A DNA stretch of 64,000 bases from a bacterium (GTDB lineage Bacteria; Armatimonadota; Zipacnadia; Zipacnadales; Zipacnadaceae): positions 8,501 to 72,500 of the forward strand of contig JAUVXR010000012.1 of assembly GCA_030603495.1 (NCBI GenBank). The letters are read 5' to 3'. The stretch's first letter is position 1. Each line of letters begins with the position of its first letter. The notes under the pieces are model-generated. The model was not told where the DNA came from. It searched no databases and saw only the letters and a program-made list of their open reading frames with translations. This document shows, piece by piece, positions 9,503 through 62,060 of this stretch. A program made the translations under genes and the position numbers.

Positions 9503-10084
9503 CTAATCCAGCTCGCGCAGAGCTGCCACTGCCAGAAGCCCGGCGACCGTCTTAGCATCGCTGATCTCGCCATGCAGACAGGCGGCGACGGCTTCGGCCA
9601 GCGGCACGGCCCGGACGCGCAGGATTTCGTCTTCGTCAGGAGCGGCCTGCCCAGGCTCAAGATTCTCGGCCAGAAAGATGTGAATCAGCTCCTGTGAGTA
9701 GCCGGGTGCCAGGTAGAGCGAAAAGAGCAGAACCAGGTGGCCCGCAGCATAGCCGGTCTCCTCAATCAGCTCGCGATGCATGGCGGCCGCGGGCTGCTCC
9801 CCGTCTTCGACGAGGCCGGCGGGGATCTCCAGAAGTGCGTGCCCCACAGCATGTCGCCACTGCTCCACCAGAAGGACTCGGCCATCGGGCAGCAGGGGCA
9901 CAGCGGCGGCAGCAGCTACGTGCTCGACTACCTCACGGGTCGCCTCACAGCCGTTAGCCAGGCGCACGGTATCGAAGCGCAGGTTCACAATGCGCCCTCG
10001 ATACAGATGCTGGGACTCGATGCTCTCCTCAGCAAGGCCTGTACCATCAACGCCAAATGAGTTTGTCTGGTCCGAGTCAGTCAT
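9503..10084 (-). CDS. Nudix hydrolase, ADP-ribose pyrophosphatase type
   Basis: A 193-residue Nudix hydrolase resembling ADP-ribose pyrophosphatases (NudF type), which would split ADP-ribose or ADP-glucose into AMP and a sugar phosphate. The Nudix box is complete: G-x5-E-x7-RE-x2-EE-x-G, read as GLVEDGEQ, then RELIEETGY. An upstream VEQWRHAVGHALLEIPAG segment is the usual substrate-binding strand. It leads the minus-strand run with the glycogen debranching enzyme, so hydrolysis of ADP-sugar to limit glycogen synthesis is a reasonable inference. The start at ATG 10084 leaves about 56 bases before the remnant on the other strand. Confidence 0.88.
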   Translation of the reverse strand: MTDSDQTNSFGVDGTGLAEESIESQHLYRGRIVNLRFDTVRLANGCEATREVVEHVAAAAAVPLLPDGRVLLVEQWRHAVGHALLEIPAGLVEDGEQPAAAMHRELIEETGYAAGHLVLLFSLYLAPGYSQELIHIFLAENLEPGQAAPDEDEILRVRAVPLAEAVAACLHGEISDAKTVAGLLAVAALRELD

Positions 10085-10139
10085 CCTGTTTTTATATTCC
10101 TGTGGCCACCGAGAAAGTCCTCCCCCGACCGCTGCTCAG

Positions 10140-10331
10140 GGCAACGGGAAGCTGCTGGAAGAGATGGTCAGCCGAGTTGGTGCGCAGCACATTCTATTTG
10201 GGACTGACATGCCCTTCTTGGACAGTCGGGCGCAGGTCGGGCGCATATTGACTGCCCGGTTGACCGACGACGAAAAGCGGCTCATCCTGGGCCTGAATGC
10301 CGTCAGGCTCTTTGATCTACCCGTCCGCTAA
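10140..10331 (+). pseudogene. Remnant of an amidohydrolase, C-terminal end only
   Basis: The last 62 codons before the TAA at 10329-10331 read like the end of an amidohydrolase family 2 (TIM-barrel) protein: HILFGTDMPFLD carries the conserved late Asp, and DEKRLILGLNAVRLFDL is the typical closing helix. Nothing upstream in this frame belongs to the family, because the preceding DNA is the start of the antisense Nudix gene. About 200 or more N-terminal residues are missing, so it cannot be a working enzyme. Confidence 0.7.
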
Positions 10332-10431: not shown

Positions 10432-10460
10432 TTGACCTAGTTGGGTATATGACCTATAAT
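10432..10460 (+). promoter_or_regulatory. Strong promoter and 175-base leader of the porin gene
   Basis: TTGACC at 10432-10437 and TATAAT at 10455-10460 are 17 bases apart. Transcription would start near 10467, giving a leader of about 175 bases before ATG 10642. GGGAGG at 10628-10633 lies 8 bases before that ATG. No known riboswitch motif was recognised in the leader. The rest of the 310-base gap (10332-10641) shows nothing else I can name. Confidence 0.75.
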
Positions 10461-10641
10461 GGGATGGTAGAAGAGACTAACCAGAAGCCCTGTTGACCCT
10501 AGGTAGCGTCACTCAGCAACCTCTCGCAGTGCAAAGAACAGGATTCGAAAAAGGTACAGCGCGCGCAGTAGATTCGCAGCAACAGGTGGCAGAATAATGC
10601 GCGGCGACGGTTGTGCTATGACTGTCAGGGAGGATGCTTAG

Positions 10642-12429
10642 ATGTTCAGATCACGATTGCTAATAGCGGCAGCATGCCTTTTAGTGGCGTTGCCGGCTCT
10701 GGCGGGCGGGCCATTCGTAATTCCTACCCCACCTAAAGGGGAACTCAAACCTCCGCCTGCACCATCACCACCCAAGGAATGTCACGTCCCCTTCGACCAC
10801 TGGGCCTATGATGCTGTCCAGCAGCTCATGGACATGGGTATCATCATCGGCTACCCTGACGGCTGCTTCCGGGGAGACCGGGCGCTGACGCGCTACGAAT
10901 TCGCTATGGCCCTGACCCGACTGCTGGACGCTGCTGACCAATTTCAGGGTCCTCCGGGACCGCGAGGGGAAAAGGGGCTAGTTGGCGCTGAGGGGCCGCG
11001 TGGCCCTCAGGGAGACCAGGGGCGAGCCGGACCGCAGGGGCCACCTGGTCCTCAGGGCAATGCTGCGGACCTGACTGAGGCCGCGGACCTGGTCGAACGG
11101 CTGCTGGACGAGTTCGCCCAGGAGATCACCGAGATTCGGGGTGACTTGGCGGATATCGTCGGCGAAGTAACCGACCTGAGTGAACGCGTCGGAGCGCTAG
11201 AGAATCTACGGCGCCCGCTTATCGAGGCGCTGATCGAGTACCGTATTGGGTTGATCGGCCGGTCGCTGGACCACGATACCGAGGCTGATGACCTGACCGT
11301 GATATTGTCAGCCACCTATGACATTGACCCTGACACGGCGGTAAAGGTTGCCCTGAAATTCGCGGACGGAGTGCTGCCCCTGACCATTCTAGGTGCAGAG
11401 GTGCTTGAGCCGCCGCTGTTCCAGAACCCGCCCCTGCCCTTTGAAATGGATCTGTACGGGCGCGGCTACGGCGAGGATAGCTGGTGGCTCGACGAAGCGT
11501 GGGTAAGCCATAGTTATGGGGAGGACGACTTCTGGCGCTTCGGCCGCCAGTTCCAGCAGTATGCGATGGGACTGGTGGTCAATAATGAGCGCCGCGCTCA
11601 GAATGGCTTGCGCCGACGCTTCGATGGTGTCTTCGACAGTAGCTTCGACATTGATCTGTTCTACGGCGGGAGCTCATACGATTGGATGCCCATACCGCCC
11701 AACAACCCGGGAAGCGATGGCTACTTCTCGAGCCGCGTGCAGTACGATGGCGATCGCCTTGACCTGGGGTTTAGCTGGCTACCCGACGGTGTGGGCAAAG
11801 AGGACGCACGCGGTGTAGACTTCTCCTACCGGTATAGCGGTGACAAGTATCTGGCGGGTGAGTATGGCTGGCTATATCACCACTGCAATCGCTACGTGTA
11901 CGCGGAGAAGCACAAGCCTGATGCCTTGGCTCTCCTGGCCGATCTGTACAAGACCGATAACCTGTGGCTGCAGGCTTGGTATTCGATCGTGGATGCGGAG
12001 TATGATATCCAGTACTCGTCACTGCATCCGTATCTGAAGATAGAACAGCGCGACCGCCCCCACAACCTGATCTACTGGGATCGCTGGCTCAAGCGGCGAC
12101 CGACTATGACCAACATCGAGTTCATTGGCGGCAATGCGTGGACGCACCTGGGTGAGTTCCCCTTGCACCTCACTTACTATCAGTTGGACGAGGAAGCCTA
12201 CGAGTGGTGGCCGAGTTCCCAGGTGTCGTCGCTGGTATTCGACAAGCTGTGGGCGATCCGCACTTACCGTTCGCTTGGCGAGAATGCCAGCGTCCAACTC
12301 ACCTATGCCAAAGCGGTCCGTGGGGATCAGCCCAATTTCAAGTACCAGGGGCCTGACGAGGGTGTCATACCGCTAGGTCCAATTGATGACCAGCAGTTCT
12401 TGCAGCTCGAGTTCCTGCTGAGCTTCTGA
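10642..12429 (+). CDS. Outer-membrane porin with SLH domain, collagen-like stalk and coiled coil
   Basis: A 595-residue exported protein, probably an abundant outer-membrane porin tethered to the cell wall. Order of parts: signal peptide (1-21), a proline-rich linker (24-45), one SLH domain (about 49-95, with HWAYDAVQQL and GYPDG), twelve uninterrupted Gly-X-Y triplets (103-138), a coiled-coil stretch rich in heptad-spaced hydrophobics (142-190), then an aromatic-rich beta-barrel ending in phenylalanine, as outer-membrane proteins do. The plan matches OmpM/SlpA-type tethers in diderms, in which SLH binds peptidoglycan or its secondary polymer, but the collagen-like segment between SLH and coiled coil is unusual. 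Both collagen and coiled-coil parts favour a trimer. A strong promoter suits an abundant protein, and a terminator follows at 12512. Confidence 0.85.
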   Translation: MFRSRLLIAAACLLVALPALAGGPFVIPTPPKGELKPPPAPSPPKECHVPFDHWAYDAVQQLMDMGIIIGYPDGCFRGDRALTRYEFAMALTRLLDAADQFQGPPGPRGEKGLVGAEGPRGPQGDQGRAGPQGPPGPQGNAADLTEAADLVERLLDEFAQEITEIRGDLADIVGEVTDLSERVGALENLRRPLIEALIEYRIGLIGRSLDHDTEADDLTVILSATYDIDPDTAVKVALKFADGVLPLTILGAEVLEPPLFQNPPLPFEMDLYGRGYGEDSWWLDEAWVSHSYGEDDFWRFGRQFQQYAMGLVVNNERRAQNGLRRRFDGVFDSSFDIDLFYGGSSYDWMPIPPNNPGSDGYFSSRVQYDGDRLDLGFSWLPDGVGKEDARGVDFSYRYSGDKYLAGEYGWLYHHCNRYVYAEKHKPDALALLADLYKTDNLWLQAWYSIVDAEYDIQYSSLHPYLKIEQRDRPHNLIYWDRWLKRRPTMTNIEFIGGNAWTHLGEFPLHLTYYQLDEEAYEWWPSSQVSSLVFDKLWAIRTYRSLGENASVQLTYAKAVRGDQPNFKYQGPDEGVIPLGPIDDQQFLQLEFLLSF

Positions 12430-12511: not shown

Positions 12512-12541
12512 AAGACCACCCCAGGAGAGGGTGGTCTTTCC
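12512..12541 (+). terminator. Rho-independent terminator after the porin gene
   Basis: AAGACCACCC (12512-12521) pairs perfectly with GGGTGGTCTT (12529-12538) around a 7-base loop, followed by a short T-rich end. It lies 82 bases after the porin stop and would separate that transcript from the export operon. The further DNA to 12701 shows no gene I can identify. Confidence 0.8.
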
Positions 12542-21416: not shown

Positions 21417-21690
21417 AAACTGAATAGGATTTGCTGTGATGGGGAGGAGTATGCGGGGAGCGGAGGCTACAGCGAGCCGGCGGGAAGGTGAGAGTCCCGG
21501 CGCCTTTTGACCGCAGAACGTCGCCCCTGAGCCGTACCGCCGAAGCTAAGTAAGCGGCAACCGGGCTGCGCCCGTTACAGCGTCAGAGAGTCCCGCCTTC
21601 GCCAAGGCTACGGCGGGGAACTTGGGTGGTACCGCGGGAGATGCTAGTTATCGGCCTCTCGTCCCAATGGGGACGAGAGGCTTTCTGTTA
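21417..21690 (+). promoter_or_regulatory. T-box riboswitch leader controlling ilvD-ilvB, probable Val specifier
   Basis: A tRNA-sensing leader. The conserved T-box GGGTGGTACCGCG lies at 21624-21636 and is followed by a 12-bp terminator hairpin. Upstream, AGCGAGCCGG...GGTGAGAG at 21471-21494 resembles the distal stem I elements. A specifier-loop-like GAAC-GTC-GCCCC at 21517-21527 suggests the codon GTC (valine). The TGGT bulge in the T-box would pair with an ACCA tRNA end, which fits tRNA-Val. Uncharged tRNA would stabilise the antiterminator and let transcription enter ilvD and ilvB. The class is certain; the specifier reading is my inference. Confidence 0.9.
21654..21688 (+). terminator. T-box regulated intrinsic terminator
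   Basis: GCCTCTCGTCCC (21654-21665) pairs perfectly with GGGACGAGAGGC (21670-21681) around an AATG loop and is followed by TTTCTGTT. It overlaps the region expected to switch with the antiterminator formed by the T-box. Confidence 0.88.
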
Positions 21691-61822: not shown

Positions 61823-62060
61823 GAGGAGGCCACCGCCTTGTTGCGTCTCGATGCCAACCGGCATGTGCCCAAGACAAAGCGCCCCGCCGATGCCGTGTGT
61901 CTGCAAGACTTCGAACCCAAATGCTAAAGTGGGTGCCCTCCTGCCGGCTTTGCGTTCTCCCGCGAGGGACATCACTCCACCCGCAGAGCCGGGCTCCCTT
62001 CAGTTGGGTGTTGGCCCGAAGCTATTTGACATCACGCACAACGCAGGGCGTGTTAGTAAT

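Follow-up and report, generated by a model that had tools for sequence, protein, structure and literature searches.

SlpA of Deinococcus radiodurans (PDB 7zgx, 8acq) and OmpM1 of Veillonella parvula (PDB 8bym, 8bys) are trimers of SLH domain, coiled coil and barrel, and connect the outer membrane with the wall (PMC9388160, PMC10628300). In SlpA, the coiled coil of about 28 nm spans the periplasm, R227 and E232 form a conserved salt bridge, and the barrel has 30 strands (PMC9388160). OmpM1 is both a tether and a general diffusion porin, and its stalk is a coiled coil without Gly-X-Y triplets (PMC10628300). The word 'collagen' is absent from the main text of either paper. The closest precedent for a collagen-like domain on a trimeric outer-membrane protein is Bucl8 of Burkholderia, whose recombinant collagen domain formed a triple helix by CD; Bucl8 is, however, an efflux channel with an extracellular collagen part made of (GAS)n repeats, which number 6 to 38 between isolates (PMC7682875). 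Scl1, Scl2 and Lcl also contain hydroxyproline-free Gly-X-Y triplets, often beside trimerising domains, but are surface proteins (reviewed in PMC8968730). Porin, S-layer and periplasm are absent from the main text of that review of prokaryotic collagens. In the open-licence literature, we found no description of SLH-collagen-porin proteins, of collagen-like proteins from Armatimonadota or of periplasmic collagen tethers; descriptions may exist elsewhere. SlpA/OmpM tethers and bacterial collagens are each known, but in that literature we found nothing that combines the two and places collagen inside the envelope.

The window analysed here (the whole stretch of DNA, 64,000 nucleotides) encodes at positions 10,642–12,429 (+) a protein of 595 amino acids with an ATG start. 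The gene is located on contig C10 of its own genome (G000, 94% complete), and among named relatives, identity is highest to Candidatus Zipacnadia / candidate division WS1 bacteria within the Armatimonadota. A signal peptide, MFRSRLLIAAACLLVALPALA (10,642–10,704, +), was read from the sequence, with predicted cleavage between ALA and GG and equivalent N-termini in relatives. A short Pro-rich linker separates it from a single SLH domain (residues 48–98; 10,783–10,935, +), recognised by Pfam (PF00395, residues 53–88, E 4.5e-6, 27 bits, cut-off 20.8) and by phmmer matches to OmpM1 and SlpA. The collagen tract (residues 103–141; 10,948–11,064, +) consists of 13 uninterrupted triplets, GPP GPR GEK GLV GAE GPR GPQ GDQ GRA GPQ GPP GPQ GNA, and is kept in relatives. 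A preliminary description of this DNA had counted twelve perfect triplets, which was correct to within the last one, the less typical GNA, and had recognised them as collagen, in agreement with a Pfam Collagen match above the curated cut-off (PF01391, residues 103–140, E 4.9e-7, 29.9 bits, cut-off 27.2). The tract is followed by a predicted coiled coil proximal to the outer membrane (residues 144–187; 11,071–11,202, +), helical in the structure model and with a heptad register, which ends in the trimerisation motif RVGALE (R182–E187). The remainder is a predicted outer-membrane beta barrel (residues 193–595; 11,218–12,426, +) with 18 strands and a C-terminal Phe, supported by AlphaFold, Foldseek and VIA-align.

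The AlphaFold model, computed for a single chain with a 27-row alignment, had a mean pLDDT of 71 and a pTM of 0.63. A helix at residues 144–187 preceded 18 strands, each 7 residues or longer (193–594), with a pLDDT of 85–97 for most strand blocks and 40–55 for loops. Foldseek and VIA-align grouped the barrel with 16–18-strand porins, AlgE and Occ first (Z about 20–24), whereas the OmpM1 barrel reached a Z of 15.6; the predicted barrel thus ranks nearer to AlgE/Occ porins than to OmpM1. The last residue, Phe595, was invariant in 27 sequences. The best sequence match in the PDB was SlpA of Deinococcus (5.5e-15 over residues 36–191, phmmer), followed by Veillonella OmpM1 (3.8e-9 over residues 49–99, the SLH domain), so that sequence relatedness to the solved SlpA and OmpM1 was confined to the SLH domain and the stalk. 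Of the features of the SlpA/OmpM family, the signal peptide, the single SLH domain in each chain, the coiled-coil stalk and the barrel with an aromatic last residue were found. Judged by sequence and model, the protein is one of the SlpA/OmpM outer-membrane-to-wall tethers and probably fastens the outer membrane to the cell wall. The preliminary description had proposed this plan from the order SLH, coiled coil and beta barrel, and the domain calls, PDB matches and barrel model agree on it.

A trimeric coiled coil adjoining Gly-X-Y segments is the usual set-up for nucleating a collagen triple helix. Helix 144–187 followed one heptad register with hydrophobic residues at 13 of 13 a and d positions, and R182 and E187 were invariant in the 27-sequence alignment. 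Of 136 family open reading frames (ORFs), 117 had the pattern RhxxhE following the spacer, compared with 0.017 occurrences per 100 residues of barrel. RhxxhE is a described trimerisation motif (PMC5940361), and the salt-bridged pair in SlpA has the same spacing (PMC9388160). The suggestion that a collagen stalk would suit a trimeric porin is thus in line with the solved SlpA and OmpM trimers, the motif and the hydrophobic core. By analogy with these homologues of solved structure, a trimeric state, a periplasmic stalk, wall binding and a porin role are strongly suggested for the protein in the window.

Taken together, we consider it likely that the protein is a homotrimer that tethers membrane to wall through a collagen stalk in the periplasm. 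After export of each chain, its C-terminal barrel would insert into the outer membrane, where it would pass solutes. The three membrane-proximal helices would assemble into a parallel, trimeric coiled coil, held by the RhxxhE salt bridges, which would bring the three adjoining Gly-X-Y segments into register and nucleate their folding. Zipping of the segments would then proceed toward the N-terminus and yield a collagen triple helix of about 11 nm in the periplasm (13 triplets × 0.86 nm), and the three SLH domains at the far end would bind peptidoglycan or a polymer attached to it. Textbook rises are 0.286 nm per residue (0.86 nm per triplet) for collagen and 0.15 nm per residue for a helix. 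The collagen stretch would therefore provide about twice the length of a coiled coil per residue and act as a tension-bearing rod between membrane and wall. The domain order and its conservation, the selection on the Gly register and the conserved promoter are observed, whereas the triple-helical state in the cell and the load bearing are inferred. Since 13 triplets are short and lack hydroxyproline, the stability of the helix must depend on the flanking trimeric domains.

When the domain order was searched for in Armatimonadota, SLH-collagen-porin proteins were found throughout the class Zipacnadia and in other lineages. All 44 near-full-length proteins at class level carried the tract at the same place, with 8–35 triplets (median 14), which excludes chance. 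Two short or fragmentary ORFs outside these 44 had 5 and 4 triplets (L073 and L096), and in a congener (L011 in genome G006) the first few triplets were swapped for the unrelated MQEHFRPV; the exact length of the tract is thus not essential. One Zipacnadia relative (L087:1965-3968) represents a natural variant with a long stalk, its two runs together holding about 35 or more Gly-X-Y triplets. At phylum level the distribution was patchy. The tract was present in Chthonomonas-type relatives (about 10 triplets in L084) and several other families of Armatimonadota, and was missing from Abditibacteriota and many other Armatimonadota families examined, as well as from the Atribacterota and Halanaerobiales homologues seen. 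Ten genomes that contain named loci (from Atribacterota, Halanaerobiales, Abditibacteriota and others) had no PF01391 match above the cut-off. The control genome of Deinobacterium chartae had a Collagen match at genome level, which may or may not lie in an SLH porin. The triplets had been described as unusual, as far as was then known; every near-full-length class member examined has them and they are common across the phylum, being frequent in the SLH porins of relatives, which contradicts that description but makes the architecture more solid.

In a tree of 120 proteins built without the tract, the trait required 6 changes, compared with 38 for shuffled labels, and at least 3 of the 6 were forced by well-supported branches; as the tree was built by a 'quick' method, the change count is rough and does not distinguish gain from loss. 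The place of the tract is a variable slot. Between the SLH helix and the coiled-coil core, family members carried collagen, coiled coil, Pro-rich linkers or tandem repeats, while the membrane-proximal core, from an EF motif to RhxxhE, had a length of 31 residues in most members, collagen-bearing or not. One collagen-less member (L134:2501-3070) had a tandem repeat of about 11–12 residues (ADYVTKDELANYV...) in the same slot. The SLH-collagen module was also found on a second porin type: in L095:2417-3802, L100:2417-3802 and on contig C58 of G000, an SLH-collagen N-terminus with 7–9 triplets was joined to Porin_O_P (PF07396) via an Ala/Pro linker, with the usual coiled coil absent.

One refinement, which is close to the rigid spacer suggested in the preliminary description and would not exclude the tether reading, is that the triple helix serves as a ruler of periplasmic width and that its length is held constant for this purpose. 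The narrow range within the class (11–18 triplets in 42 of the 44 proteins) and the uniform remainder of the spacer, at 26–39 non-collagen residues in nearly all class members, would fit a ruler. Common descent alone could, however, account for the narrow range, and outliers exist in the variant with 35 triplets and in one relative with 8. Stalks were estimated at about 20–22 nm with collagen and about 14 nm without, counting every non-collagen residue as helical, so that collagen-less stalks would be shorter. Compensation between triplet number and the remaining spacer length was not observed (Spearman −0.06, p 0.63; 33 ORFs dropped out at the motif search, and the long values for L031, L034, L145 and L155 are probably motif misplacements). 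A strict ruler is thus not supported, and we regard the refinement as doubtful, if conceivable.

In the main rival to the tether with a collagen stalk, the tract forms no triple helix but is a flexible, extended Pro-rich linker that joins the SLH trimer to the coiled coil. Collagen-less relatives with Pro-rich or other linkers in the slot, for example L045, manage without the tract, and the single-chain AlphaFold model gave it a pLDDT of about 40–50 and no triple helix. Both features of the model are what AlphaFold would give for one chain, and with the tract unfolded there, the lack of collagen-like matches in Foldseek and VIA-align is likewise expected. A flexible linker would have no need for Gly at each third residue. 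Among 78 distinct tracts with 991 triplets, X was Pro in 55% and Y was Ala, Pro, Gln or Lys in 73%. This composition fits a triple helix, for which both the enrichment of Pro at X and the adjoining trimeric coiled coil are suited. In 276 pairs of tracts of equal length, identity was 37% at X and 22% at Y, and the third base of the Gly codon differed in 70%; the tracts were chosen by Gly periodicity, so that Gly identity in this set exists by construction. An alignment of 19 divergent members anchored on the SLH domain had six invariant Gly columns in the tract, with others at least 90% conserved; since some of these members were known beforehand to carry the tract, the alignment speaks for the register and not for presence. 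With the Gly columns kept, X and Y varied and the Gly codons near saturation, the sequences indicate that the Gly register is under selection, a pattern not expected of a nucleotide repeat or of a plain Pro-rich linker. We therefore judge a flexible linker improbable.

It is very unlikely that the protein is instead a surface S-layer protein or adhesin with its collagen rod directed outward. The characterised bacterial collagen-like proteins described in the papers cited here are extracellular, and NCBIfam gave matches to the Scl and Lcl adhesins via the tract, but these were far under the cut-off. The tract also lies N-terminal to the barrel, between the SLH domain and the coiled coil, a region that faces the periplasm in SlpA and OmpM; by this analogy, the domain order predicts a periplasmic rather than a surface tract. 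That the triplets are a functionless nucleotide-level repeat (GGNCCN expansion) is scarcely credible: GPA/GPP-rich tracts are GC-rich and have open frames on the opposite strand, but the Gly third bases have diverged, the Gly columns stay while X and Y diverge, and the tract is universal in the class.

Upstream of the gene, a sigma-70-type promoter, TTGACC-N17-TATAAT (11 of 12 consensus positions; 10,432–10,460, +), was located 181 nt from the ATG. All six distinct orthologues checked had an equivalent with 11–12 of 12 positions and a 17-base spacer, 134–194 nt 5' of the ATG, which makes the promoter credible. The strong promoter noted in the preliminary description is thus present and conserved, while control by a long leader was not borne out. 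The predicted leader of about 175 nt (10,467–10,641, +), with its start placed from the −10 box, was poorly conserved (3 of 222 alignment columns invariant) and matched no Rfam family. A ribosome binding site, AGGGAGG (10,627–10,633, +), was read from the sequence. At the 3' end, a perfect 10-bp hairpin (AAGACCACCC...GGGTGGTCTT; 12,512–12,538, +) with only a short T run was noted by eye as a weak terminator candidate; a terminator scan at this end of the gene returned nothing, the hairpin included. The flanking genes were unrelated in kind to the porin, with a NUDIX protein on the opposite strand upstream and an HlyD-ABC-MacB/FtsX cluster downstream. The end of the ORF at 9,780–10,331 (about 10,140–10,331, +) resembles the C-terminal part of an amidohydrolase (VGAQHILFGTDMPF...) and may be a gene remnant immediately 5' of the promoter. 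Elsewhere in the window, a T-box leader (21,427–21,669, +; RF00230, 100.8 bits, above the Rfam gathering score), here in an Armatimonadota genome, and a 6S RNA (61,877–62,052, −; RF00013, 78.3 bits) were detected.

Within G000, Omp85 (PF01103) was present, and PF00691 (OmpA/Pal) had no match, while five control genomes were positive; at 94% completeness, the assembly may lack such a protein. PF00395 was found at four places, all of them in proteins of the present type: the window protein and contigs C58, C16 and C52. The ORF on C58 (L004) encodes an SLH domain and collagen on the start of a barrel that was identified as Porin_O_P via its relative L095, the ORF at the end of C16 (L002) is cut by the contig end within its tract, and that at the end of C52 (L008) is cut before any tract could show. 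On C45 and C46, another two similar collagen porins (L005, L006) lack an SLH domain only because the contigs start there. The paralogues at the contig ends of C45, C46, C16 and C52 were closely similar, so the assembly was probably interrupted by recent duplicates and the copy number seen here is approximate. SLH-collagen porins were the only tether candidates found in this genome. Another Armatimonadota genome (G116) had an unusually large SLH set: the SLH-based profile matched 97 times, often in ORFs of 500–1500 amino acids.

For the class Zipacnadia and several other Armatimonadota lineages, we lean toward the view that a load-bearing periplasmic collagen triple helix tethers the outer membrane to the wall, that at least three gains or losses of it have occurred in the slot that separates SLH domain and coiled coil, and that it is also carried on Porin_O_P. 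The same design across the class means that collagen probably works inside the bacterial cell envelope. Collagen is the protein of animal skin and bone, and the bacterial collagen domains in the papers cited here lie outside the cell, as adhesins or surface rods. If the reading is true, a collagen rod inside the envelope, as the apparent main tether of a bacterium in which OmpA/Pal was not detected, would be a new job for collagen. The swappable slot would mean that an ancient tether changes its stalk material while the SLH domain, the trimeric coiled-coil core and the barrel stay. Natural length variants, with 6 to 20 or more triplets or none, may serve as probes of periplasmic width and tether tension, and short hydroxyproline-free collagens held between two trimers may be useful designs.
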